NCBI RefSeq assembly: GCF_002749975.1
Contig: NZ_PEIG01000011.1
Coordinates: 1-64,000 of the forward strand
Direction: 5' to 3'
DNA length: 64,000 bases
Source: Gloeocapsopsis sp. IPPAS B-1203
GTDB lineage: Bacteria; Cyanobacteriota; Cyanobacteriia; Cyanobacteriales; Chroococcidiopsidaceae
Positions 19,384 through 33,783 of this stretch are shown one piece after another; the stretch's first letter is position 1; every line of letters begins with the position of its first letter. The translations under genes were made by a program, and so were the position numbers. The notes beneath the pieces were generated by a model. It saw only the letters and a program-made list of their open reading frames with translations, made no database searches and was not told the origin of the DNA.

Positions 19384-22191
19384 ATGTTAAACCTTGATTT
19401 TTCTTTCGCGATTCCTGACACAGTTGTAGATAAAGATGGTCAAGGCACCGGATTCACATCGGTAGAGCCTAACAGCAGTGGGGATCATTATCAACCGAGT
19501 CAAATTGATCTCGACACAACCGCTAAAAAACTGACTCTAACTGCAACAAAGGGTAGTAGTGCCTGGACAAACAACTCACTAAAAAACGCACTACAGCGCG
19601 GAATTGATGACACTAAACCGTTTACAATTAGCACGCGGTTACAAGGATCGCCCACTAAATTTGCAACTGCTTTTCAGCAAGGTGGCGTTTTTTTTGGTTC
19701 GGATCAAGATAATTATGTCAAGCTTGTTGTCATCAATACTGGTGGCGCGAATGGCTTGAGACTTCAGTTTTTCAAAGAAGAAAACGGAGTAGGCTCAAGT
19801 ATTGGAGAAATTTCTAATCTCAATTGGAGAAATATCAATACGCTGGACCTTTATCTCACAGGCGATCCTGAGACAAAAACGTTTAAGGCAGCTTACCGCG
19901 TTAACTCAAATACAGCACCAGCTACTGTCGTCAATCAGTCTGCCACAATTAAGGCAAATACACCCTTTTTTATTGCCAATTCTGGTAACACTACTGCTGG
20001 TATCTTAGCTTCTACAACGAATGCACCCAATGTTGCAGTTGCGTTTGATCAGTTTGGCATTGCTCAAGAAATTAAAGTCAACTTTCAACCCAACAACGCG
20101 AATCTACCATCAGGTTTTGTCACAGACAATGGCGCAGGATTCAATAACGTTCGTGGCTATGGTTGGGTTAGAAATGGAACAAGTACACCTTTAAACATTG
20201 GGCAATTTGCCCGCGATCGCGATCGCCTAGGTGTGGATCAACGCATTGATACTTTACTGCATATGCAGTATCCCAATACTCCTGCGGCAGCTTGGGAAAT
20301 GGCAGTTCCGAATGGACTGTACAGCGTGAGTGTCAGCGTTGGTGATGGACCAAACCCCAATGGAGTCTATGACAGCAAGCACTCAATTCGCGTTGAAGGT
20401 GTGACCGCAATTGACAAATTCCAAAGCACTGCGCTGCAAGAATATAAGCTAGAAACCGTTAAAGTGAATGTCAACGATGGTAGGTTGACAATTGATGCGA
20501 TCGGTGGAACTAACACCAAAATCAACTTCATCGAAATCTTTAACATCACCCCAGGAAAACACCCTAACATTACAGGATTTGCAGTTGATCGTGATACACA
20601 GGGTAGAGCATATCTCAATACATCGATTAATGTAGATGTAGCGCTGGCACGTGCAGGCATAGGTGTTGAAGCTAACAGCTTAAATGCATCAACTGTAAAA
20701 CTGTATCGGACAAAAGATGGTCAACAAGTTCCTGGACTTGTAGGAACAAGTGGCGGCAATGATGTTATTGTCTACCAACCTAGTCAGAATTTAGCCCCTA
20801 ACACTAACTACACCTTCATCGTTACAAACAACGTCAAAGACGAATCGGGTACAAGCTTCAACACGAGTAGTTTCACGTTTAATACAGGAAACACGACTAC
20901 CAATCCGACTGATAACCGAGTTAATTTCACCCAACAGTCTGTATACCAAGGTGCACCACTAGCAAGTTTAACTGTTGGTCCTGATGGCAAATTATATGCT
21001 GCTGGACTCGATGGCAAAATCCGCCGTTGGAACATCAATACAGGTTCGGGTCAATTATCAAATTTGCAAACTTTTGCACCAGCAAAGCTAGATGGTCGTG
21101 CAATTATTGGTATTGCCTTCGACCCCAACAACCCCAATAATCTTTGGATTTCGCATAACGATCCACTTTTTCCTCAACCAGCAAAAGACTTTACAGGTGC
21201 CATCTCCAAGCTGGTTCTTAATTCCAATACAAACTCTTTTAATGCCAATATCCAAGACTATGTCGTTGGTTTACCACGCTCAGCCAAAGATCATCTCAGC
21301 AATAGCCTCGCGTTTGGTTCAGACGGTAAACTTTACATGACCCAGGGTAGCAATAGTGCGTTGGGTGCGCCAGATACAGCTTGGGCAAATCGACCTGAGC
21401 GATTGTTAACTGCTGCGGTTTTGCAAATTGATCCTTACAGAAATGCCCCTATTGGTGGCTTTAATGTCCAAACCGAAAACTACGGCGGTAAACAAGGAAA
21501 CTATAATCCTTTTGCCATTAATGCCCCAGTCAAAATTTATGCTACTGGTATCCGGAATGCTTACGACTTAGTTTGGCATAGTAACGGTAGCTTATACGTA
21601 CCGACAAACGGCAGTGGTGCTAATGGTAATACTCCAGATGATCCCAGAACTTCAAGAAATGAAGCATTACAAAAAGTTGCTGCTCAAAATGACTACTTAT
21701 ATAGAGTAGTAGAAAGCGGTTACTACGGTCATCCGAATCCCAAACGTGGGGAGTACATTCTCAATGGCGGTAATCCGACAAATGGTGTCGATCCAGCTGA
21801 AGTAGTGAGAATCGTTGATCCTGTTACTAATGCTGTATATGCAGGTTATCCGGTTGGTGTTCAGCCAGATCCTAACTTCTCAGGCTTTGCTTACGATTTT
21901 GGACGCAATAAATCACCCAATGGCGCCATTGAATACAAGAGCAATACTTTCGGAGGCGCTTTGAAAAACAAGCTGCTTGTTACACAGTACAGCGGCGGCA
22001 ATGACATATTGGCACTAGAACCAGGTGCTAACGGCAACGTTCCTAGAGGAAATGTCACCCGCATTGTTTCTGGGTTAAACGATCCTTTGGATTTAGTGGA
22101 AGACACAAGAACAAATGCTGGCAATTTGTACGTTGCAGAACTCATTCAGGGCGGTGCTGCAGGTCAGATTTCACTGTTGAAAGTAAGTTAA
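19384..22191 (+). CDS. Modular extracellular-type protein: lectin-like, malectin-like, Ig-like, quinoprotein propeller
   Basis: 935 residues with no N-terminal signal peptide. Residues 1-220 form the shared lectin/LamG-like module (LDFSFAIPDTVVDKDGQGTG, then GGVFFGSDQDNYVKLVV, then LDLYLTGDPETKTFKAAYRV). Residues about 225-390 are a carbohydrate-binding malectin-like region ending INFIEIFNITPG. Residues about 395-505 are an SbsA-type Ig-like domain. Residues about 515-935 are a six-bladed propeller of the soluble PQQ sugar dehydrogenase type (DHLSNSLAFGSDGKLYMTQG and ATGIRNAYDLVWHSNGSLY). It could bind or oxidise extracellular sugars. Absence of a Sec signal, with an exporter downstream, suggests type I secretion (inference). 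Confidence 0.85.
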   Translation: MLNLDFSFAIPDTVVDKDGQGTGFTSVEPNSSGDHYQPSQIDLDTTAKKLTLTATKGSSAWTNNSLKNALQRGIDDTKPFTISTRLQGSPTKFATAFQQGGVFFGSDQDNYVKLVVINTGGANGLRLQFFKEENGVGSSIGEISNLNWRNINTLDLYLTGDPETKTFKAAYRVNSNTAPATVVNQSATIKANTPFFIANSGNTTAGILASTTNAPNVAVAFDQFGIAQEIKVNFQPNNANLPSGFVTDNGAGFNNVRGYGWVRNGTSTPLNIGQFARDRDRLGVDQRIDTLLHMQYPNTPAAAWEMAVPNGLYSVSVSVGDGPNPNGVYDSKHSIRVEGVTAIDKFQSTALQEYKLETVKVNVNDGRLTIDAIGGTNTKINFIEIFNITPGKHPNITGFAVDRDTQGRAYLNTSINVDVALARAGIGVEANSLNASTVKLYRTKDGQQVPGLVGTSGGNDVIVYQPSQNLAPNTNYTFIVTNNVKDESGTSFNTSSFTFNTGNTTTNPTDNRVNFTQQSVYQGAPLASLTVGPDGKLYAAGLDGKIRRWNINTGSGQLSNLQTFAPAKLDGRAIIGIAFDPNNPNNLWISHNDPLFPQPAKDFTGAISKLVLNSNTNSFNANIQDYVVGLPRSAKDHLSNSLAFGSDGKLYMTQGSNSALGAPDTAWANRPERLLTAAVLQIDPYRNAPIGGFNVQTENYGGKQGNYNPFAINAPVKIYATGIRNAYDLVWHSNGSLYVPTNGSGANGNTPDDPRTSRNEALQKVAAQNDYLYRVVESGYYGHPNPKRGEYILNGGNPTNGVDPAEVVRIVDPVTNAVYAGYPVGVQPDPNFSGFAYDFGRNKSPNGAIEYKSNTFGGALKNKLLVTQYSGGNDILALEPGANGNVPRGNVTRIVSGLNDPLDLVEDTRTNAGNLYVAELIQGGAAGQISLLKVS

Positions 22192-22222
22192 CACAACAAG
22201 CGATCGTTAAAGGAGAATCTTC

Positions 22223-22369
22223 ATGCCTGCTGATTTAAGCTTAGACTTTTCAGCAGCAACCCCAGGAACAGTAGCAGATAAAAACGGATGCTGAATTTGC
22301 AATTTAGAACCAAACAAGATCTTTGCCTCAGTTTCCGCTCTTGAGGTTTTGAGTGCATCTAGTGAGTAA
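22223..22369 (+). pseudogene. Collapsed copy of a lectin/malectin-module gene
   Basis: An ATG at 22223 with AAAGGAG upstream begins MPADLSLDFSAATPGTVADK, nearly identical at DNA level to the start of the gene at 22456. After AAAAACGGA the sequence jumps to TGCTGAATTTGCAATTT, which matches the extreme 3' end of that same gene (its QFKAEQDFASISAIEV end) and runs to TAA 22367. The first frame stops after NGC at the junction. About 2.1 kb between the two ends is missing, leaving only both tips of a former paralogue. Confidence 0.85.
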
Positions 22370-22455
22370 AGTGACGAGTGATACAATTTATGCCACCTGT
22401 GAATTGACTTTTTATGAAGTTATCAGGCGGGATAAGTGACCAGAGGAGTGTTTTC

Positions 22456-24612
22456 GTGCCGACATATTTAAGCTTGGATTTTTCAACAGCAACACCAGGA
22501 ACAGTAGCAGATAAAAACGGATTAGGAACAGGATTCAGCTCAGTCCAAGCAAACAGTACAGGCGATGCCTATGACCTAAGTTTGATCAATGTCGATACAG
22601 CCAGCAGCAGCTTAGTACTAACCGCAACTCAAGGCAGCAACGCCGCAGCAAATAACCTGAAAAATGCACTGCAAGTAGCAGTAGATACAATCACCCAACC
22701 ATTTCGTATTAGTACGCGGCTCAAAGGACCAGTCACCAACCTCAATGCAGCATACAAGCAAGGTGGCATCTTTGTGGGATCAGACCAAGATAACTATGCC
22801 AAGCTAGTTGTCGTCAACGATGGCAAACAATTGAAGTTGCAGTTCTACAAAGAACAAAATGGCATTGGAGCAAGTATTGGTGAAATCACAGGCTTGAATT
22901 GGGCAGGCATCGATACTCTAGACTTATATCTGACGGGCGACCCGCAATCCAAAACTCTCAACGCTGCCTATCGAGTGAACTCGAACACAGGATTACCAAC
23001 TGCACTCCAACAAGTACAAATTGGTGCGGGAGCAGCGTCATTTTTTGCCAACAGTGCAACGTCCCGTGCCGGAATCTTAGCGTTCACGGGTCAATCGAAA
23101 AAAGTGGATGTAACGTTTGATTATTTTGGAGTCAATTCTCTTGCTAGTGCCAACCCTGACTTTAATCAAATTAATTGGAGTAATGTTAAACCATCACCAC
23201 TTGGTCGTACTGAGTCTTCAGGTATCGTAGCTAACAATAAGTTATATTTATTTGGTGGATATATTGATAATACTTATACTCCAACTAAGCAATCGCACGC
23301 TTACGATCCTGCAACAAATATATGGCAAAGAATAGCAAATTTGCCAACTGCGATTAGTCATGCTGGAATTGCAGTTGCAGGAAACAATATTTATCTAGCT
23401 GGTGGCTATCCAGGAAAAGAACCACGAGGACAGACCTTTGCCACAAATGAAGTATGGCGGTATAACACTGTCCAAAACAAATGGTTTGCAATGCCATCTT
23501 TGCCTGCAGCTAGAGGTTCTGGTGAGTTATCGGTTCTCAATGGCAAACTGCACTTCTTTGGCGGTGTGAATGCCAACAGAATTGATCAAGGCACTCACTG
23601 GGTTTTACCACTCAATGGTGGTCAATGGACTAACTTAGCTCCATTACCTAATCCTCGTAGCCACATGGCAGATGCCGTTGTTGGTGGAAAGCTTTATGCT
23701 ATTGGCGGTCAAGTTGGTTCAGAACATGAAGGTGCTCAAGCTACCGTGAATGTTTATCATCCGGCAACGAATACTTGGAAGTCAGCAAAAAGCTTACCTC
23801 AAGCGCTATCGCATGTTTCTGCTTCCACGTTTGTAATGGATGGCAAAATTATTGTCGCAGGAGGAATGCTTGCTGATGGTACTGATATCAGCGAAGTAAA
23901 AGCTTACGATCCACTGGCTGATTCGTGGTCTGTGTTATCGCCTATTCCTGGACCGAGATCTTCAGGAGTTGCTGGGCGAATTGGCAACAATATATTCTTT
24001 GCTACTGGTGCTTCTCCAGGGTTCTCTGCAACGACGTTTAAAGGAGTGCCTGTTAAAAACCAAGCTATTAATAGTAATGCACAAGCACTGTATCGCATAA
24101 ATGTAGGTAGCAATACATCATACACCGATAGTCAAGGCAACATCTGGTCAGGCGATACGGGACTATTTAACCCTCAAGGCGCGATCGCACTCAATGGTGG
24201 TCCGGTTAATCCTACTCCGGCAATTGCTAATACATTTGATGACACGCTTTATCAAAGTTTTCGCGGCAAGGTGGGGGATAACAATACCCCTATCTCATCG
24301 CGGGTGTTGTCGTTAGATTTACCCATTGCTACACCCCAAAGTGTGGATATTAAGTTGCATTTTGCTGAATTGTACTATGGTGCACCAGGACGAGCAGCGG
24401 GGGGTGCAGGCAAACGTGTTTTTGATGTGATTGCGGAGGGTCAAACAATACTGAATGATTTTGACATTTTTGCGGCGAGTGGTGACGCACTCAAAGCAGT
24501 TGTCGTGCCGATTAATGGCATTCAAGTGAATGATGGAACGCTGAATTTGCAATTTAAAGCTGAACAAGACTTTGCCTCAATTTCCGCTATTGAGGTTCTT
24601 GCAGCAACCTAA
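22456..24612 (+). CDS. Modular protein: lectin-like, Kelch propeller, malectin
   Basis: About 718 residues from GTG 22456, chosen because AGAGGAG precedes it and the remnant at 22223 aligns there; an upstream ATG (22414) would add 14 residues. The first ~220 residues are the same lectin-like module as the previous gene (LSLDFSTATPGTVADKNGLG, GGIFVGSDQDNYAKLVVVND). Residues about 240-530 are Kelch repeats, with recurring NNKLYLFGGY, NNIYLAGGYPG, NGKLHFFGGV, GGKLYAIGGQ and DGKIIVAGGM. The last ~170 residues are a malectin domain (YRINVGSNTSYTD, LHFAELYYGAP, GKRVFDVIAEGQ). No signal peptide. Probably surface or matrix glycan binding. Confidence 0.85.
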   Translation: MPTYLSLDFSTATPGTVADKNGLGTGFSSVQANSTGDAYDLSLINVDTASSSLVLTATQGSNAAANNLKNALQVAVDTITQPFRISTRLKGPVTNLNAAYKQGGIFVGSDQDNYAKLVVVNDGKQLKLQFYKEQNGIGASIGEITGLNWAGIDTLDLYLTGDPQSKTLNAAYRVNSNTGLPTALQQVQIGAGAASFFANSATSRAGILAFTGQSKKVDVTFDYFGVNSLASANPDFNQINWSNVKPSPLGRTESSGIVANNKLYLFGGYIDNTYTPTKQSHAYDPATNIWQRIANLPTAISHAGIAVAGNNIYLAGGYPGKEPRGQTFATNEVWRYNTVQNKWFAMPSLPAARGSGELSVLNGKLHFFGGVNANRIDQGTHWVLPLNGGQWTNLAPLPNPRSHMADAVVGGKLYAIGGQVGSEHEGAQATVNVYHPATNTWKSAKSLPQALSHVSASTFVMDGKIIVAGGMLADGTDISEVKAYDPLADSWSVLSPIPGPRSSGVAGRIGNNIFFATGASPGFSATTFKGVPVKNQAINSNAQALYRINVGSNTSYTDSQGNIWSGDTGLFNPQGAIALNGGPVNPTPAIANTFDDTLYQSFRGKVGDNNTPISSRVLSLDLPIATPQSVDIKLHFAELYYGAPGRAAGGAGKRVFDVIAEGQTILNDFDIFAASGDALKAVVVPINGIQVNDGTLNLQFKAEQDFASISAIEVLAAT

Positions 24613-24656
24613 GTTAGAGCTTTCTTTTCGTTGTCACCTCTATAGTTGAGTATGTA

Positions 24657-27167
24657 ATGGCGACTGATCTTCTTAATCCTTCTACTGAATCAACCACTGA
24701 CTTAAATACCAGTCAAAACACTGGTTACACCAGTCTGCAAGCAAGTACAGCAGATCCGTACGGCTTTAACAGCTTAAATCAAAGCACTGTTAGCAGTAGT
24801 AGCCTGCAAGTTCTTACCCCAGATGCCAATATTGTCTCTAATCGAATGGTATTTGGTACTGTTGGTGGGGAAGTGCGATCGCCAAAAACACTAACACTGA
24901 GTAATACAGGCAGTAACCCACTAACAATTACACTCAACCTTGGTGATTCACAAGAAAAAAGTAACGCTGTTAGACTGCCAGATCATCAACGGGCTGGTGA
25001 TTTTCAAATTCTTGATGCTCCCACAGGACAACCATTTACACTTGGAGCGAACGAAACCCGTAATATTCAGGTGCAGTTTGCTCCGCAGCGAATGGCGCGG
25101 CTGAGTACTACCCCAATTACTCATACTTTTAATGGGGAGAACTATGCATCGCTGACAATTAATACCAGTGGTCAACCAGTAAAAACAGTTAATCTTGCAG
25201 GACTCAATGCAGCTAACTACGAAGGTAATAGAGAACCTTCACTCGCAGAAATCACTCGGATTTTTGGCTGGACAACGAATGTAGGCAGTGAAAACTTGAT
25301 CTTAGGTGGTCAAAAAAGTTTAGTTGGAGATGAAGTTTTCTCTCCTTACTGGGTACGTGCTGACAACACTAAACCTGTTCAATTGTGGCCTATAGCTATT
25401 TACAGTGGTCCTACAGATGGTCCTCACGATCCCATTCGATTTGAAGCAAAACCTGGTAGCGGCGGTAGAAGTGGTTTAATTTATCAACACGCAGGTCGTC
25501 TGCAAGCTGATAATGTACTCGGAAGTAACGATCTTAGCGGTGGCGAAAATCAGAAGTTACTCCCCAGTGTTTTAGCTGGCGGAGTGAACACAACTCCTAG
25601 CATTAATAATGTTAGCTTTACTCCAAATAGCCCCTTTGCTCTGAATCGCAGCTTGAATGCAGGAAGTACTCAAGGTGCTTGGACAGATTACACGCAAAAC
25701 CTTCCCGATCAGACACATAACTGGCGAATTTATCCAGTGCGTGATGCTCAAGGTACGCTTATTCCGCATACTTGGTTAGCTGCTTCCGATCCTGGCAATA
25801 GCCTGACTGGTACAGGGAAAAACTTTGACTACAATGATGATGTTTATTTGATGGTTAACGCTAAACCCGAAAACCCAGCGCTAGATCCATCAGTCGGTCG
25901 TAGATTCCCTGGTTCGCCAGACTTGCAGTTTTACTTTGGTAAAACTTATGAGAATGTCTTTCCGAACGGTTTAAAAGACAAAAATGGCAAGAATATTGGC
26001 TTTACAAGTACGCAACTGAATAGAAATGACACTTTTACGTCGATTGCTTCCTACAATCCAAACCTGATTAACCTTGATACAAATGGTTCAGGTACGCTGA
26101 AAATTACAACAACCAGTGGTAGTAATGGTGGTAAAGATAATACACTGATGAACGGTTTGCGAACTGTCTTTGATGGTAGAGCTAGCAAATCAGTCATCAG
26201 TTCTAGACTGCTGGGACCATTTAACAACATTCAAGCAGGATTTCAACAAGCAGGCATTATGTTAGGTCCCGATCAAGACAACTATATTAAGGTAGTTGCG
26301 ATCGCCAGTAACAATAATCAACTAGGTATTCAGTTTTATCAAGAAAACAATGGAGTAGGACAAACAATAGGTACAGCAGCGATTCCTAACCGTGGAAGTG
26401 TGCAGTCTTTAGAACTAAAGTTGTTTACCGATCCCCGAAATGGAACAGTCCGCGCGGGCTATAGTGTTGGCAATAACAATAATGTCGTTCTCTTGCCTGG
26501 CGTAGTATCGCTCAAAGGTGGTCAAATTGGTAGTTATTTTGCTGCTCAAAGCAAAGCTGGATTAATTACTACTAATAAAGGATCAGTGCCATTTACGGCA
26601 ACTTTTGATAACTTCTTGATTTCATCAAACGAAACAACAGCATCACGACAAGTTTTACATCGGATCAATGTTGGTAGTAGTTCAACATACACAAGTCCTA
26701 GTGGTTTTGTATGGAATCCAGATACAAACTTGTTCAGTCCATCAAATGCTGTACCTGAAAGTACACTAGGCACACCTAACATCAAAAATACACAAATTGA
26801 CCCAGTGTATCGCTCCTACCGAGCCAAAATTGGTAATGGTTCTATTCCACTATCATCTCGCGTGCTATCTTTTGCACTACCTGTTCAACCAGGTAAAGTT
26901 GATTTGCGATTGCACTTCTCTGAAAATTATTGGGGTGCACCAAATCGCGGTCCTGGTGGTGTCGGTAAGCGCGTGTTTGATGTCATTGTCGAGAATCAGA
27001 CTGTATTGCACAACTTTGATATTACACCAGCATCTGGTGGTGCTTTGACTGCTGTAAAAATACCTATTGAAGGAATACAAGTTAATGACGGACAGTTAAA
27101 TATTCAACTCAAAGCAAAATCTGACTTTGGTGCTATTTCTGCAATCGAAGTTTTTCGCTCAGCTTAA
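24657..27167 (+). CDS. Modular protein: anchor-D-like, unknown middle domain, lectin-like, malectin
   Basis: 836 residues, 44 bases after the preceding gene, no signal peptide. Residues about 55-150 resemble a choice-of-anchor D/ASPM-SPD2-Hydin beta-sandwich (KTLTLSNTGSNPLTITL, NIQVQFAPQRMA). Residues about 165-425 form a domain I do not recognise, with IFGWTTNVGSENLILGG and NDDVYLMVNAKPENP. Residues about 440-655 are the shared lectin-like module (KDKNGKNIGFTSTQLN, GIMLGPDQDNYIKVVAI) and 680-836 a malectin domain (HRINVGSSSTYTS, LHFSENYWGAPNRG). Order lectin-malectin matches the upstream gene without its Kelch part, pointing to module shuffling by duplication. Confidence 0.82.
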   Translation: MATDLLNPSTESTTDLNTSQNTGYTSLQASTADPYGFNSLNQSTVSSSSLQVLTPDANIVSNRMVFGTVGGEVRSPKTLTLSNTGSNPLTITLNLGDSQEKSNAVRLPDHQRAGDFQILDAPTGQPFTLGANETRNIQVQFAPQRMARLSTTPITHTFNGENYASLTINTSGQPVKTVNLAGLNAANYEGNREPSLAEITRIFGWTTNVGSENLILGGQKSLVGDEVFSPYWVRADNTKPVQLWPIAIYSGPTDGPHDPIRFEAKPGSGGRSGLIYQHAGRLQADNVLGSNDLSGGENQKLLPSVLAGGVNTTPSINNVSFTPNSPFALNRSLNAGSTQGAWTDYTQNLPDQTHNWRIYPVRDAQGTLIPHTWLAASDPGNSLTGTGKNFDYNDDVYLMVNAKPENPALDPSVGRRFPGSPDLQFYFGKTYENVFPNGLKDKNGKNIGFTSTQLNRNDTFTSIASYNPNLINLDTNGSGTLKITTTSGSNGGKDNTLMNGLRTVFDGRASKSVISSRLLGPFNNIQAGFQQAGIMLGPDQDNYIKVVAIASNNNQLGIQFYQENNGVGQTIGTAAIPNRGSVQSLELKLFTDPRNGTVRAGYSVGNNNNVVLLPGVVSLKGGQIGSYFAAQSKAGLITTNKGSVPFTATFDNFLISSNETTASRQVLHRINVGSSSTYTSPSGFVWNPDTNLFSPSNAVPESTLGTPNIKNTQIDPVYRSYRAKIGNGSIPLSSRVLSFALPVQPGKVDLRLHFSENYWGAPNRGPGGVGKRVFDVIVENQTVLHNFDITPASGGALTAVKIPIEGIQVNDGQLNIQLKAKSDFGAISAIEVFRSA

Positions 27168-27243
27168 TTTCACTAGGGCAGAGAGAGGAGCGAGGAGCGA
27201 GGGATAAGGGACAATATCACATCTTTGTTGAGTTGAAAGCATA

Positions 27244-27274
27244 AATCCCCCTTCAGATTTTCCAAGGGGGAATT
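27244..27274. terminator. Bidirectional terminator between convergent genes
   Basis: A stem of AATCCCCCTT / AAGGGGGAATT with a 10-base loop lies between the lectin-module operon (stop 27167) and the converging exporter gene (stop 27293). The A/T flanks give a short U-run on both strands. Confidence 0.7.
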
Positions 27275-27292
27275 TGTGCTTGTGATTTGGGC

Positions 27293-29830
27293 TCAGATGT
27301 TTTGTTGACGTTGGTATAAAGACCAGTACAAGCCTTTTTTCTGCATCAATTCAGTATGTGTTCCTTGTTCCATTAAAACGCCTTTTTCCAACACCAAGAT
27401 CAAATCAGCTTTTTTAAGCGGTTCAAAGCGGTGAGCAATCATAAAGATCGTCCGGTTTTTTGCCAAACTTTGAATATTGTGTAAAACTTGCTGTTCAGTT
27501 TCACTATCTAGCGCAGTAGTCGCTTCATCTAAAATCATCAGTGGGGCTTGCGATAAAAATAACCGTGCTAAAGCAATTCGTTGGCGTTGTCCTCCAGAGA
27601 GTCCTGTACCGCGTTCGCCAATGGAAGTTTCGTATCCTTGTGATAGTTCACTGACAAAATCGTGTGCAACTGCCATCCGTGCTGCTTTGACGACTTCTTC
27701 CGCAGTAATATCAGGATTCCCTAAAGTAATATTCTCCAAAATCGTTCCGTTAAACAAAAAGTCTTCTTGGAGAACGACACTAATTTGTTGACGTAAAGAA
27801 GCAATATCGGCACTTTTGATATCAAAGCCATCAATGAGGATGCGACCAGATTCAGGAAGATACAGTCGCTGTAATAATTTAGAAAGTGTACTTTTGCCTG
27901 AACCACTGCGCCCGACAATACCAACAAACATTCCTGGCTGGACATGAAATGAAATCCCGCGCAAAATTGGTTCTTGATTAGGGCGGTAACGGAAAAATAC
28001 CTGGTCAAAAGTGACTTGCCCTTGCAGCGCTGGTAAGACTAAGCCAGAACCTGGTTCAGCTTCTGGGGCGACATTCAAAACATCTCCCAAGCGATCCACT
28101 GAAAGCAAAACTTGCTGTAAATTTTGCCACAGTTGCACCAAGCGCAATAACGGACCTGTGACTCTGGCAGATAGCATCTGAAATGCGACTAATTGACCTA
28201 CAGTAAGTTGCTGATTTATGGCTAATTTTGCCCCAAACCACAGAATGAGGAGGTAAGAAAAACTTGTGAGGAAAGTTCCAATATTACTGGTAATTTTGGA
28301 AGCAGTTGAGGCTTTGAAGTTAGTCCGAATATAACGGGCAAAAAGTCCTTCCCAACGTTCGCGAGAAGTTCGTTCTGCGCCATGTGCTTTTACTGAATGA
28401 ATTCCTGTAATCGTTTCGACTAAAAAAGATTGGCTATCAGCACTTTGGTTGAAGGCTTCATCAAGCCACTTCCGTAAAAGTGGAGTAGATAGTAAGATCA
28501 ATAAAGCAAACAGCGGAATCACTGCCAGTGCTACCCAGGTGAGGGGAACGCTGTAGTAAAACATCAGTGCCAAGTACATTACTACAAATAAGCTATCAAG
28601 AATCACTGTTAAAGTTGTACCAGTGAGAAACTCGCGAATATTTTGTAATTCTTGCACTCGTGCTGCGGTATCTCCCACGCGTCGCGACTCAAAATACGCT
28701 AGTGGTAAGCGCATCAAATGACGAAAGACTTGAGCTGATAAACTTAAATCCAGTCTGCGTGCGGTGTGAGTAAAAATAAAAATCCGCAAAATACCTAGAA
28801 TTGCCTCAAATAGTGCGATCGCTAATAGGGCGATCGCCATCACATCTAAGGTAGATAGACTTTCTTGCACCAAAACTTTATCAATAATCACCTGAGTGAT
28901 GACTGGGGTGGCTAAGCCAAATAGTTGTAGTGTAAATGAAGCTAAAAGGACTTCTCCTAATAACTTGCGATAGCGCCACACTGCAGGCAAAAACCAACTC
29001 AGGTTGAACTTATCGCGTTTTTGAATCAGTTCAATTTGCCAGAGTTGTCCATTCCATGAAGTTTCTACTATTTCTCGTGGAATGCTTTCACACGTTTGAT
29101 TAGGATTAAGTGGATTAGCAACGATCAGGCGATCGCCTTTAATGCCATAAACTACAACCCATGACTCTTGTTGCCAATGCAACAGTGTGGGAAAAGATAG
29201 TTTGCGTAAGTCACTCCAACTGACTTGAATTTTTTGTAATTGTAGTCCTACTTTTTCTGCTGCTTCAGCAACATATTTAGGGCTTTGTCCTCGTACTTGT
29301 CGTTGTACCCATTCCAACTGTGCAGGGTTTTGCAGGTGTCGTGTCACCATTGTTAAACAAGCAGCAGCAGTATTTAAACTCGAAATGAAAGGATAACCTA
29401 ATATTGGTTGTGGCTGAGGTTCTTGTTGAGGTTGATAGCGCGATCGCTCTTCTGCCCAAAATTGCTGTACCTGTGGAGATGAAACTGTCGTCCAGAAATC
29501 TGCCTTCCAGTGTAATACAACAACATCTCGACTTGATGCTCTCGCTTTCCATACTCCTGAAAGTTCTAATAAATCACCTACCCAGTCTCCTCGTTGCAGA
29601 ATCACCGACTCTCCATGTTCGGGAACTAGGCGCACCTTGCCAGAAAGAATTAGAATTTGACTTCCAGAGCCTCTAGTGTTGTTTTCGCCATCAGTAGACC
29701 ATATAATCTCACCAAGAATGTAACTACGCGTTTCGGCTTGGTGTTGAAACTGAACCTGTTCTTCAGAGCTTAAACACGATAAGGGAGCTTTATCCCACAT
29801 CAAGTTTTTAATCTCATCTGTCGTAATCAT
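27293..29830 (-). CDS. Type I secretion ABC exporter with cNMP-binding and inactive C39-like domains
   Basis: 845 residues. The N-terminal ~130 form a cyclic-nucleotide-binding-type domain (GEIIWSTDGE, ILILSGKVRLVPEHGESVILQRGDWVG). Residues about 145-265 are a peptidase C39-like domain whose catalytic Cys position is Thr154 (NTAAACLTMV) and whose His position is Ser223 (LHWQQESWVVV), so it should dock substrates without cleaving, as in HlyB. A six-helix ABC membrane domain follows (about 280-560). The ATPase has GRSGSGKST, LSGGQRQR and LMILDEATTALD. Likely exports leaderless large proteins; the neighbouring modular proteins are the obvious candidates (inference). Membrane-fusion and outer-membrane partners are absent here. 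Confidence 0.93.
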   Translation of the reverse strand: MITTDEIKNLMWDKAPLSCLSSEEQVQFQHQAETRSYILGEIIWSTDGENNTRGSGSQILILSGKVRLVPEHGESVILQRGDWVGDLLELSGVWKARASSRDVVVLHWKADFWTTVSSPQVQQFWAEERSRYQPQQEPQPQPILGYPFISSLNTAAACLTMVTRHLQNPAQLEWVQRQVRGQSPKYVAEAAEKVGLQLQKIQVSWSDLRKLSFPTLLHWQQESWVVVYGIKGDRLIVANPLNPNQTCESIPREIVETSWNGQLWQIELIQKRDKFNLSWFLPAVWRYRKLLGEVLLASFTLQLFGLATPVITQVIIDKVLVQESLSTLDVMAIALLAIALFEAILGILRIFIFTHTARRLDLSLSAQVFRHLMRLPLAYFESRRVGDTAARVQELQNIREFLTGTTLTVILDSLFVVMYLALMFYYSVPLTWVALAVIPLFALLILLSTPLLRKWLDEAFNQSADSQSFLVETITGIHSVKAHGAERTSRERWEGLFARYIRTNFKASTASKITSNIGTFLTSFSYLLILWFGAKLAINQQLTVGQLVAFQMLSARVTGPLLRLVQLWQNLQQVLLSVDRLGDVLNVAPEAEPGSGLVLPALQGQVTFDQVFFRYRPNQEPILRGISFHVQPGMFVGIVGRSGSGKSTLSKLLQRLYLPESGRILIDGFDIKSADIASLRQQISVVLQEDFLFNGTILENITLGNPDITAEEVVKAARMAVAHDFVSELSQGYETSIGERGTGLSGGQRQRIALARLFLSQAPLMILDEATTALDSETEQQVLHNIQSLAKNRTIFMIAHRFEPLKKADLILVLEKGVLMEQGTHTELMQKKGLYWSLYQRQQNI

Positions 29831-30080
29831 AGAAACCTCACGAGAGCTTGCGAACCCTCCGATCTCAGTCGAGAAAGGACACTTTGATACAATTAACTTT
29901 GGCAGACTATATTGAACAGATTATGGAGCTACTGAATCACAAGTCTTTGCTTTTTAAATGAATTCCAACTCTGACGGCAAATCAATTATTCATATTTTTT
30001 AACTGAATTTACAAATTATTTTTAGCTATTAAAAACACTGCAAAATACATATACAAAGTATTACTTTTGCTGTATTCTCA

Positions 30081-30839
30081 TTATGAATTCACTTGAAGCT
30101 TAATATTAAGCTTTTGCATCTTTTCACCTAGCCATTGCTCAAAAAGCTGGTTTTCTAGTTCTTGCTTAACTGCTCCTTCTAAAGTAGCAGGAATAAATTG
30201 CTCTACTCGGAATAAACAATACCAGTCATCAATTTCTATTGGACCGACAACTTCGCCAGGATTCACTAATTCAATTAAAGCCCGCAGTGCATCAGGTAAT
30301 TGACCCCGACTAATCGGTCCCATCATACCATTAACAATGCGATCGTCAGTGACTGAGTATTCTTGAGCAAGCTGCTCAAACCTAGCCCCTTCTAAAATTT
30401 GGCTTTTTAACTCTTCTGCTAACTCTTGCTCCTTTACCACAATTCGAGAAAGCACTACACGATCCAAAAAAATCTTTTGCTCAATAAAATACTCTTGAAT
30501 TTTTGATTCGGTAATATTATTTCTCAATTTTTCTAACTTGAAGTTAAACACAACTTGTTGGTGGAATGTTGGATAATCTAAACCATTGTTGATTAACCAC
30601 TCTTGAAAATTGTTTGGGTCTGTTAGTTGTTGCTGTAAGCGAAAATCAATTATTGCTTGCTCGATAACTCCAGGATTAATTTCAAGGTCTTTTCGTGTTT
30701 GTAATTCTGTTTCTAAAATTCTTTGTTTAAGAATTTCTATAATGAAAGGTTGAAGTTTTCCAGATGTTTGCAGATATTTAAGTGCTTGTGAAAGATTGAT
30801 TGGTTGTTCGTCAACTATTAAAAATGATGTAGATTCCAT
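30081..30839 (-). CDS. Parvulin-type peptidyl-prolyl isomerase (SurA/PpiC-like)
   Basis: 252 residues with no signal peptide. The helical N-terminal portion is SurA-N-like (residues about 10-120), followed by a PPIC rotamase domain (residues about 130-230: ILEGARFEQLAQEYSVTDD, MGPISRGQLPDALRALI, GPIEIDDWYCLFRVE). Cytoplasmic SurA-like proteins of this sort are often found beside cyanobacterial type I exporters with C39-like domains and may help keep long substrates export-competent; that role is inference. It is transcribed in the same direction as the exporter, about 250 bases upstream of it, and probably forms a unit with it. Confidence 0.88.
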   Translation of the reverse strand: MESTSFLIVDEQPINLSQALKYLQTSGKLQPFIIEILKQRILETELQTRKDLEINPGVIEQAIIDFRLQQQLTDPNNFQEWLINNGLDYPTFHQQVVFNFKLEKLRNNITESKIQEYFIEQKIFLDRVVLSRIVVKEQELAEELKSQILEGARFEQLAQEYSVTDDRIVNGMMGPISRGQLPDALRALIELVNPGEVVGPIEIDDWYCLFRVEQFIPATLEGAVKQELENQLFEQWLGEKMQKLNIKLQVNS

Positions 30840-31770: not shown

Positions 31771-33543
31771 CTACAAACAGTAGTAAATCCGATACTTGTA
31801 GCCATTCATTTTATCTCTCGTTTTAGGATCAATGTGACAGCCTTCTATTTTAGGTTCTGCTGTGGGGAAAAAATTAATAACCCATAAAGTCAGAGGTTTT
31901 GGTAGCTGTGCTATGTTTTTTTTTAAAGTGTTGATAGGTTGAGAATTAGAGTCTAAGTGTGCTAAAAGAAAGGAAGGAAGATGTTCAGAAGATTTGTGAG
32001 TCAGACGGTAACGATGTTTAAGCTCTAGTGCTAATCCCATCATTTCACCAATTTGCTCATGGGTAAAGTAGGTTGTTACAATCAGAGTAGAAGGCTGCGA
32101 TATTTCATTGATAATTGGTGCTAATAAATCGGGGCGATCTGGTTTCTGGTAGGCAAAGTTAGATATAACAGTAAGACTACCTAACAAACCTAAAAATAAA
32201 AGTAAAATAACAGGTGTTTTACCTTTAAGATTTAAAGAATAAACTAATTTCTTTTGACGAGTTCTCTCGACTGATGCCTGAAAATCTAAATAGTCATAAG
32301 CGTTCCAAGAAGTAGCCAGTGCTACTGCCGTTAAAAGTAGTACTGTAGGAAAGTAAAAAAATTGATAACGAGCTGCAATTGTTAAGTCAGCATTAAAGCC
32401 AAAAGTAATAGTAAATAAAAGTGCGATCGCTACCCAAAGATATCTGAGTAAAACTTGAAATTCTAACTGTATTTTGGGATTTTTGTTCTGAAGTTTTATT
32501 CCTTTTATAATAATAGGTATTAGCCAAACAGTAAATCCAATTAGTATACTACCGGATAACAGCATCAGCTGTACATTAACACCTTCAATAGGTAATAAAA
32601 CGAACATAGTAATAAGCCAGGCTATAAATTGTGAAAGGCTTTTGAGTAAGTTTAAAGAATTATCATCAAAAATCCATTGTGTCACTTTGTTCTCAGGCAC
32701 ACTCCGCCATATTGGGAGCCAAACCACGCTGGTTATAAAAGCACTTATCACTACAGCATAAATGCGATACCAATATACTAACTGGTTTCTCAATGGCAAT
32801 CGAGAGTATTTATTTTCAGTTTTGAATTGTAGCCATTTATAAATATCTGTAAGCCAAAAACTAATAAGAACAAGTACTACAGCAATTATATTGAAAATGA
32901 AAAAATAGTGAATAGCAATTCCCAAAGCATTAATAAAAATCCAAAAGAATGCTAGACCAATAGATAAATATTTGTAGTTTTGAACGTTACGAATAGCTAT
33001 AACTAAACAACATAAAGATGTAATAACAAGTAAGATGGCTAAGGTGTAGTGTCGGGCTTCTTGTGCTTGATAAATACCGTAAGGTGAAACTGCCATCATA
33101 GCAGCTACAATCTGTGCTACTAGTAGCGAACGAAAGGCTGCATAAGCTAAGCCAAATATTGCTACAATCGCTGCAACTCCAAAAAGCGCACTGAGCGATC
33201 GTGCTGCCCAAAATGAAGCTAAACCATCCACAGTAGGAAATAATTTCATCCACAGATGTGTCAGGACGAAATATATTGGTGGGTGAGTACTCTCTGTCAT
33301 CAAATGCTGAATTACATCACTAATGCCAGCATCAGGATTAGGTTGTAGTGGTTGTAACAGAGTTTCTAAGCGAATGATTTTGTCAATTGGTACTGTGCGA
33401 AAACTATTTCCCAGACTAAAAACTACAGTCGCAAATTCATCATTCCAAGGAGGTTTTGCTGCTAGGTTAGCAAAGCGCAAAACACTACCAATGGCTATCC
33501 ATATTAAGAGAGTTAATACGTGTAATCTTGGATGAGGTTGCAT
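31771..33543 (-). CDS. GT39/ArnT-like membrane glycosyltransferase
   Basis: About 590 residues from ATG 33543 (a TTG just upstream would add one residue). Roughly ten or more hydrophobic segments span residues 10-480. The first loop has the acidic PWNDEFATV motif and, further on, THPPIYFVLTHLWMKLF, both typical of the PMT/ArnT superfamily that transfers sugars from polyprenyl-phosphate carriers. The C-terminal ~110 residues are soluble, probably periplasmic (TLIVTTYFTHEQIGEM). The acceptor cannot be inferred; cell-surface glycan or lipid decoration is likely. It stands alone, flanked by long spacers. Confidence 0.82.
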   Translation of the reverse strand: MQPHPRLHVLTLLIWIAIGSVLRFANLAAKPPWNDEFATVVFSLGNSFRTVPIDKIIRLETLLQPLQPNPDAGISDVIQHLMTESTHPPIYFVLTHLWMKLFPTVDGLASFWAARSLSALFGVAAIVAIFGLAYAAFRSLLVAQIVAAMMAVSPYGIYQAQEARHYTLAILLVITSLCCLVIAIRNVQNYKYLSIGLAFFWIFINALGIAIHYFFIFNIIAVVLVLISFWLTDIYKWLQFKTENKYSRLPLRNQLVYWYRIYAVVISAFITSVVWLPIWRSVPENKVTQWIFDDNSLNLLKSLSQFIAWLITMFVLLPIEGVNVQLMLLSGSILIGFTVWLIPIIIKGIKLQNKNPKIQLEFQVLLRYLWVAIALLFTITFGFNADLTIAARYQFFYFPTVLLLTAVALATSWNAYDYLDFQASVERTRQKKLVYSLNLKGKTPVILLLFLGLLGSLTVISNFAYQKPDRPDLLAPIINEISQPSTLIVTTYFTHEQIGEMMGLALELKHRYRLTHKSSEHLPSFLLAHLDSNSQPINTLKKNIAQLPKPLTLWVINFFPTAEPKIEGCHIDPKTRDKMNGYKYRIYYCL

Positions 33544-33783
33544 CAAAATTCAACTATTGAGGTAATTTCAATCCAAAAATATTGATTCTTTAGGTTTGTT
33601 GAGAGATTTTTTTCACTATTGCTGATATCTGTCAACTAAGTACATATCAATAGAATTGTTGAATGAAAGTATTCAGGAGTAATAATACAGCAAACTTCTT
33701 GCAATTGGTAATAGGATTGCAGTTAACTCGCTTGCGATCAAGTACAATACATATCCTACTCATCTTGAATGTGTTTAACCTAC

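Follow-up and report, generated by a model that had tools for sequence, protein, structure and literature searches.

In a 64,000 nucleotide stretch of Gloeocapsopsis sp. IPPAS B-1203 (the window, from contig C11, NZ_PEIG01000011.1, of a 5.9 Mb assembly) three large proteins, here called A, B and C, share a lectin-like module and lie beside an HlyB-type exporter that is paired with a parvulin-type peptidyl-prolyl isomerase. Judging from sequence, A, B and C are probably cargo of a putative tripartite type I system that carries proteins without RTX repeats, and would serve as glycan-binding matrix proteins. Their route of export has apparently changed from Sec to type I. The nearest named relative that we found is Gloeocapsopsis crepidinum LEGE 06123 (locus L024). 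The genes concerned are the following.

19384-22191, plus strand: protein A, 935 residues, with the module at residues 1-227, a middle region at 230-390, a Big_5 Ig-like domain and a C-terminal GSDH quinoprotein-type beta-propeller.
22414-24612, plus strand: protein B, 732 residues from the first ATG, with the module at residues 19-242, a Kelch propeller and a C-terminal malectin domain.
24657-27167, plus strand: protein C, 836 residues, with a Ser/Thr/Asn-rich N-terminus, an anchor-D/ASH-like domain, a conserved unnamed domain at about 150-425, the module at 426-657 and a C-terminal malectin domain.
27293-29830, minus strand: the exporter, 845 residues, an HlyB-type type I secretion ATP-binding cassette (ABC) transporter with a cyclic-nucleotide-binding-like N-terminus and a C39 domain without its catalytic Cys.
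30081-30839, minus strand: the parvulin-type peptidyl-prolyl isomerase, 252 residues, leaderless, paired with the exporter.

That three large proteins without signal peptides share one module, and that an exporter and a parvulin converge on them, had been put forward in a sequence-only reading of this DNA, and both points are borne out by the open reading frames (ORFs), their strands and coordinates and BLAST between the modules. The module spans about 225 residues and is 58% identical between A and B (E 4.6e-78), 34% between A and C (E 9.9e-32) and 37% between B and C (E 1.3e-39); in C it is present but starts near residue 426, not at 440 as first placed (440-655). The start first proposed for B (22456, a GTG, giving 718 residues) would make it resemble four of the six full-length B copies of other genomes (715-721 residues), the other two being longer at 732 and 740 residues; the first ATG at 22414 gives 732. 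Within the genome A, B and C hold the only three copies of the module found. A search of solved structures with the module sequence gave no credible match and only the predicted fold helped, a model from a 25-sequence alignment being all-beta and confident (predicted local distance difference test, pLDDT, 88.8). Its best Foldseek match (E 1.2e-9, TM 0.67) is to GH43 beta-xylosidases, and a weak Pfam GH43_C2 match would place the likeness in their C-terminal domain. Foldseek also matches the model to two small proteins, 3o12 and 3mep, members of DUF1349; in Pfam the modules stay below the DUF1349 (PF07081) cut-off with 17.8, 17.0 and 13.2 bits against 32.4, and the relative L025 reaches 28.7. 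The module likely has a concanavalin-like lectin/glucanase fold, a jelly-roll beta-sandwich, which supports the lectin-like call made from the sequence; glycan binding, proposed alongside it, is a predicted property to which this fold and the malectin domains point.

Across the phylum the module is rare, being found in 2 of 386 genomes sampled. A pattern-based scan of genome contigs, in which near-own records were left out so that its 16 loci are an under-count, placed it in Gloeocapsopsis (1), metagenome-assembled genomes (MAGs) traced to family genomes (2), Gloeobacterales (4), Aphanocapsa lilacina (1), Phycisphaerae (5), Actinomycetota (2) and Acidobacteria (1). Inside the family 8 of 19 genomes carry the module, and the N-terminal part of the exporter (nucleotide-binding-like and C39 domains) was found in 9, namely the same 8 at 71-100% identity and G515, which has a divergent exporter only (54%). 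The remaining 10 have neither (Fisher p 1.2e-4 with G515 counted, 1.3e-5 for the close exporter), so that the co-occurrence suggested for testing in the sequence-only reading holds inside the family. In all 8 module genomes C is the nearest large gene to the exporter. The g147 stretches (G538 and G542) retain C, the exporter, the parvulin and a further membrane-protein gene, with C at no more than 49-52% identity; dnaE and A are missing from them. The contig of G538 ends about 1 kb past C and A is on another contig, so the place of A cannot be judged, and in G542 a B-related short Kelch protein (46%) is kept. That genome, which is 73% complete, also contains module genes in several broken copies (L153, L162, L163 and L164).

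In order to compare N-termini we took as leader measure the highest mean hydropathy of 11 residues within the first 50. By this measure all 27 readable module-ORF starts in the family are leaderless; A, B and C score 1.09, 1.25 and 0.01, and the 24 readable module ORFs of the seven other family genomes, some of them shortened or broken genes, all score 1.35 or less. None of the in-frame upstream starts of A, B and C gives a leader. Two candidate leaders before C were rejected, a hydrophobic-looking run of 13 codons that holds no ATG, GTG or TTG, and the open frame, which has differing lengths in other genomes. In contrast, four of the five cyanobacterial loci outside the family (L025, L026, L028 and L029) score 2.73-2.89 and look like Sec leaders, the fifth (L027) beginning at a contig end with an unreadable start, and L035, L037 and L038 have Sec-type N-termini by eye. 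In Phycisphaerae L030, L031, L033 and L034 begin with an LExRxLL-like stretch, not a Sec-type leader, and Sec use elsewhere is therefore not universal. The evidence from leaders is the contrast with Sec-led relatives, not the low score itself. Cysteine is absent from A, B, C and 17 other family proteins (20 of 20 measured), where 20.7 would be expected in A, B and C together from 16 other window proteins.

When A, B and C were compared by BLAST with 12 long relatives, the same parts turned out to be joined in single chains elsewhere. In L025 (1537 residues, Sec-type leader) residues 388-934 of A match 276-808 at 58% and residues 50-660 of C match 929-1536 at 52%, and L027 resembles this arrangement. 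An A part precedes a C part in one chain in L030, L031, L034, L035, L037 and L038, and in L037 malectin and a short Kelch match (B 253-319) follow them; L029 is A alone and L028 the module with C, each behind a Sec-type leader. In a tree of 43 modules those of C fall together with the C-terminal ones of Gloeobacterales chains (100/100), and those of A and B lie near the N-terminal ones, with an open base. A and C therefore plausibly work together and outside the cytoplasm, and either a split or a fusion may have come first. Long proteins with this domain order, A then C, occur in Gloeobacterales, Phycisphaerae, Actinomycetota and Acidobacteriota MAGs; they differ from A and C in being one chain, in their Sec-type leader or (in Phycisphaerae) another N-terminus and in lacking a complete exporter of this type within the flanks fetched. 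A short HlyB-like match in L034 (270 residues, E 2e-20) was not counted as an exporter.

The exporter passes the HlyB-type model TIGR01846 (788.9 bits against a cut-off of 725.55) and its closest solved structure is E. coli HlyB. Its C39 domain had been called inactive from the sequence, and alignment bears this out with Cys replaced by Thr, His by Ser and Asp by Asn; in an alignment read by eye the Cys is absent from all 42 distinct exporters, while His is kept in 5 and Asp in 2. The N-terminal domain matches cyclic-nucleotide-binding chains, with a profile E of 3.8e-15 to cGMP-dependent kinase. This domain order, nucleotide-binding-like, C39, membrane and ATPase parts, is that of HetC of Nostoc, which in the available part of its description has a cyclic-nucleotide-binding domain and an active cysteine protease and binds ppGpp in vitro (PMC10986499). 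We therefore weighed a regulated, peptidase-containing peptide exporter of the HetC type, with A, B and C as unrelated neighbours, and find it very improbable; by the same partial source HetC needs its catalytic peptidase residues (PMC10986499), whereas the exporter here has lost the Cys and passes the HlyB model.

As for partner components, one C17 protein of the same genome passes the HlyD model TIGR01843 (278.4 bits against 208.65) and is the best candidate; its identity to the ten HlyDs that lie near this exporter in other genomes is 61-67% for five and 37-43% for four, with a partial match to that of L102 (61% over 179 residues). Those exporter-linked HlyDs are 23-33% identical to the C3 and C20 HlyDs, the comparison covering the C17, C3 and C20 proteins with the C12 HlyD left out. 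Two OEP (TolC-type channel) proteins are unlinked candidate partners of the exporter. The genome holds other sets of this kind. On contig C20 (L159, 6678-15696) a second HlyB-HlyD-parvulin set adjoins a 709-residue RTX-type protein and a 197-residue protein with RTX-like repeats by eye. On C3 (L160, 6370-13176) there is a third HlyB-like exporter of 1009 residues, under the TIGR01846 cut-off and with its C39 Cys kept, accompanied by an HlyD and two parvulin-like proteins.

We infer that the exporter, the unlinked HlyD and a TolC-type channel would form a tripartite system moving A, B and C unfolded, in one step, from the cytoplasm to the cell surface or matrix. The inactive C39 domain may act as a substrate-binding domain and the leaderless parvulin, likely a cytosolic export helper, would keep the long beta-rich chains export-competent. 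Outside the cell the concanavalin-like and malectin domains would bind polysaccharide, the propellers acting as enzyme or scaffold.

Pfam agrees with the partner domains read from the sequence. A passes the cut-offs of Big_5 and GSDH (the PQQ-dependent sugar dehydrogenase domain, PQQ being pyrroloquinoline quinone; 27.8 bits against 25) and B those of Kelch and malectin, the malectin domains (PF11721) of B and C scoring 62.7 and 63.0 bits against 23. The anchor-D/ASH region of C appears below cut-offs only; the relative L025 passes choice_anch_D with 69 bits and has ASH and HYDIN-type Ig over cut-off. The domain at about 150-425 of C is conserved across four phyla, carries an NYDYND-type motif and has no Pfam match in C; a mediocre model of 150-430 (pLDDT 67.4) gave no fold match at E 0.001, and a PHROGs search with C found nothing. 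Searched alone against solved structures the propeller of A matched a WD-repeat protein only. A 10-sequence profile of A and its relatives was needed for the match to soluble quinoprotein glucose dehydrogenase (1c9u, 5min; E 4.4e-12), in which the KDH and G-x-RN stretches, which we take to be catalytic and cofactor residues of that enzyme, are retained. Overall similarity to the enzyme is low, and a PqqB search of the genome gave 0 matches at E 0.001, though none of the 14 control genomes passed the cut-off either, so that the sensitivity of this search is unproven. Sugar oxidation, which the sequence-only reading had offered as an alternative role, is doubtful because PqqB was not found, and the activity of A would accordingly need outside PQQ or another cofactor. 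Scavenged PQQ may be compatible with the missing match, and A may be a binding propeller.

The parvulin-exporter pair is not confined to this family. Among 388 genomes taken as a sample of the order, 100 have the N-terminal part of the exporter, and exporter loci were fetched from 40 of these 100, several being cut by contig ends. A parvulin lies within 6 kb in 36 of the 40 loci, an HlyD in 10 and a leaderless candidate cargo in 23, including six module loci; without these six the counts in 34 loci are 30, 10 and 17, and leaderless candidates remain in 12 once the glycine-zipper proteins, which are not evidently extracellular, are excluded as well. The candidate groups comprise module, calpain, PPC, subtilase, GH26-like and glycine-zipper proteins, nine of which were Pfam-scanned. 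In L095, L098 and L101 the glycine-zipper-type proteins adjoining the exporter are very basic (isoelectric point, pI, 10.4-11.1) and free of cysteine. Leaderless cargo beside the pair in other loci is suggestive only. A wider proposal, to which we give slightly less than even confidence, is that a single large propeller/anchor-D/lectin protein, mostly Sec-exported elsewhere, occurs here as separate leaderless proteins rerouted to a parvulin-assisted and possibly nucleotide-regulated type I exporter, and that the parvulin-exporter pair is an order-wide machine for non-RTX cargo such as calpain-like and subtilase proteases, PPC and lectin proteins.

Export of A, B and C by the neighbouring exporter, as the sequence-only reading had supposed, is supported by the family co-occurrence, the leaderless state set against Sec-led relatives and the lack of cysteine, and more weakly by the other leaderless candidates beside the pair. 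Several observations weigh against it. Outside the family, relatives carry a Sec leader or a different N-terminus, and a search at E 1e-5 found no such exporter in the two genomes from which L025 and L026 come. The earlier reading had held that the secretion link fails if relatives of the module generally carry Sec signals or occur without a nearby exporter; outside the family this is what we see, with Sec-type leaders at four of five cyanobacterial loci and no such exporter in either searched genome, but not inside it. The leader measure is crude: among the 408 ORFs of the loci it reaches 2.3 in 14% and stays at 1.4 or lower, the level of the cargo, in 63%. The leaderless state by itself is therefore ordinary, and some outside-family relatives are also low in cysteine (0-17 per protein). 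A, B and C have pI values of 6.15, 6.52 and 7.78, no GGxGxD nonapeptide (RTX) repeats and no common C-terminal signal or extension; B and C share their malectin end and A ends with its propeller, no C-terminal signal model having been applied. Among the 34 exporter loci without the module 17 show no leaderless candidate, and the candidate groups were picked by eye with no independent control. The missing PqqB match counts on the same side.

The 8 positive genomes come from three of seven genera within a single family, and the conserved synteny of g1 and g143 extends to dnaE and other genes; the counts are therefore not independent and the p values overstate independence. Taken with the two searched relatives that lack such an exporter and the occurrence of a B relic and broken copies, this would fit inherited synteny only, with A, B and C cytoplasmic or non-functional. 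We regard that explanation as improbable given that the core of C, exporter and parvulin persists in g147 despite the divergence of C, that Sec-led fused relatives put these domains outside the cytoplasm and that none of the 20 proteins contains cysteine. Somewhat less improbable, though still unlikely, is that A, B and C leave by another leaderless route, in outer-membrane vesicles or through another HlyB such as that of the C20 set, and that the neighbouring exporter serves other cargo. The window contains no HlyD, and HlyD and TolC are unlinked to the exporter. The further exporters on C20 and C3 come with their own HlyD and parvulin-like genes, and the 10 kb flanks fetched around a second C-type copy in G538 (L032/L151) contain no exporter of this type, so that some cargo would be served in trans. 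An HlyB-like match at the edge of L032 was rejected as a linked exporter. It is an ATPase fragment of 210 residues, truncated where the locus stops, and its neighbours look glycosyltransferase-like by eye; the exporter of this type is on another contig of that genome. Against such a route C adjoins the exporter in every module genome, no genome of the family has the module without the close exporter or the reverse, and the C20 set adjoins its own RTX-type protein. Export of A, B and C through the neighbouring exporter is thus the reading that we favour.

Compared with HlyA-type secretion (HlyB-HlyD-TolC), the system resembles it in passing TIGR01846, in a C39 domain without catalytic Cys, in leaderless neighbours and in having HlyD and channel genes in the genome; it differs in candidate cargo without RTX repeats, in the unlinked HlyD and in adding an N-terminal nucleotide-binding-like domain and a paired parvulin. 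RTX proteins carry a C-terminal secretion signal of about 60 uncleaved residues, according to the available text of PMC3034196. Large leaderless exoproteins of Synechocystis taken as type I cargo are described, in the part of PMC11424642 at hand, as rich in glycine and poor in cysteine, with Ca-binding motifs and a pI below 5. To these A, B and C are similar in having no leader and no cysteine, with a glycine content of 10-11%, but differ in pI and in the lack of Ca repeats. According to the available portion of PMC4390845, some cyanobacterial exoproteins, HesF of Anabaena and others, have no recognisable leader, and the comparison of HesF with A, B and C is by description. Among open-licence papers we found no description of this combination of module and exporter.

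Two further features of the locus were read from the sequence. Promoter-like sites in the window are fewer than in shuffles and terminator-like sites slightly more, and neither was used as evidence.

22223-22369, plus strand: the remnant of a second B-type gene, lying between A and B, with a module start and a malectin-type end and its middle gone (compare G441 with two B genes and G453 with a shortened B).
31771-33546, minus strand: a 591-residue membrane-type protein with no Pfam or NCBIfam match, which is found at the same position close to the parvulin in five other loci of the family and was not seen in the G453 stretch.

How large cyanobacterial proteins are moved to the outer matrix is poorly known. 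Domains that carry a Sec leader in one lineage but in another have none and adjoin an exporter would amount to a natural experiment on RTX-free type I substrates, and the parvulin-exporter pair may provide a genomic handle with which to predict leaderless cargo.

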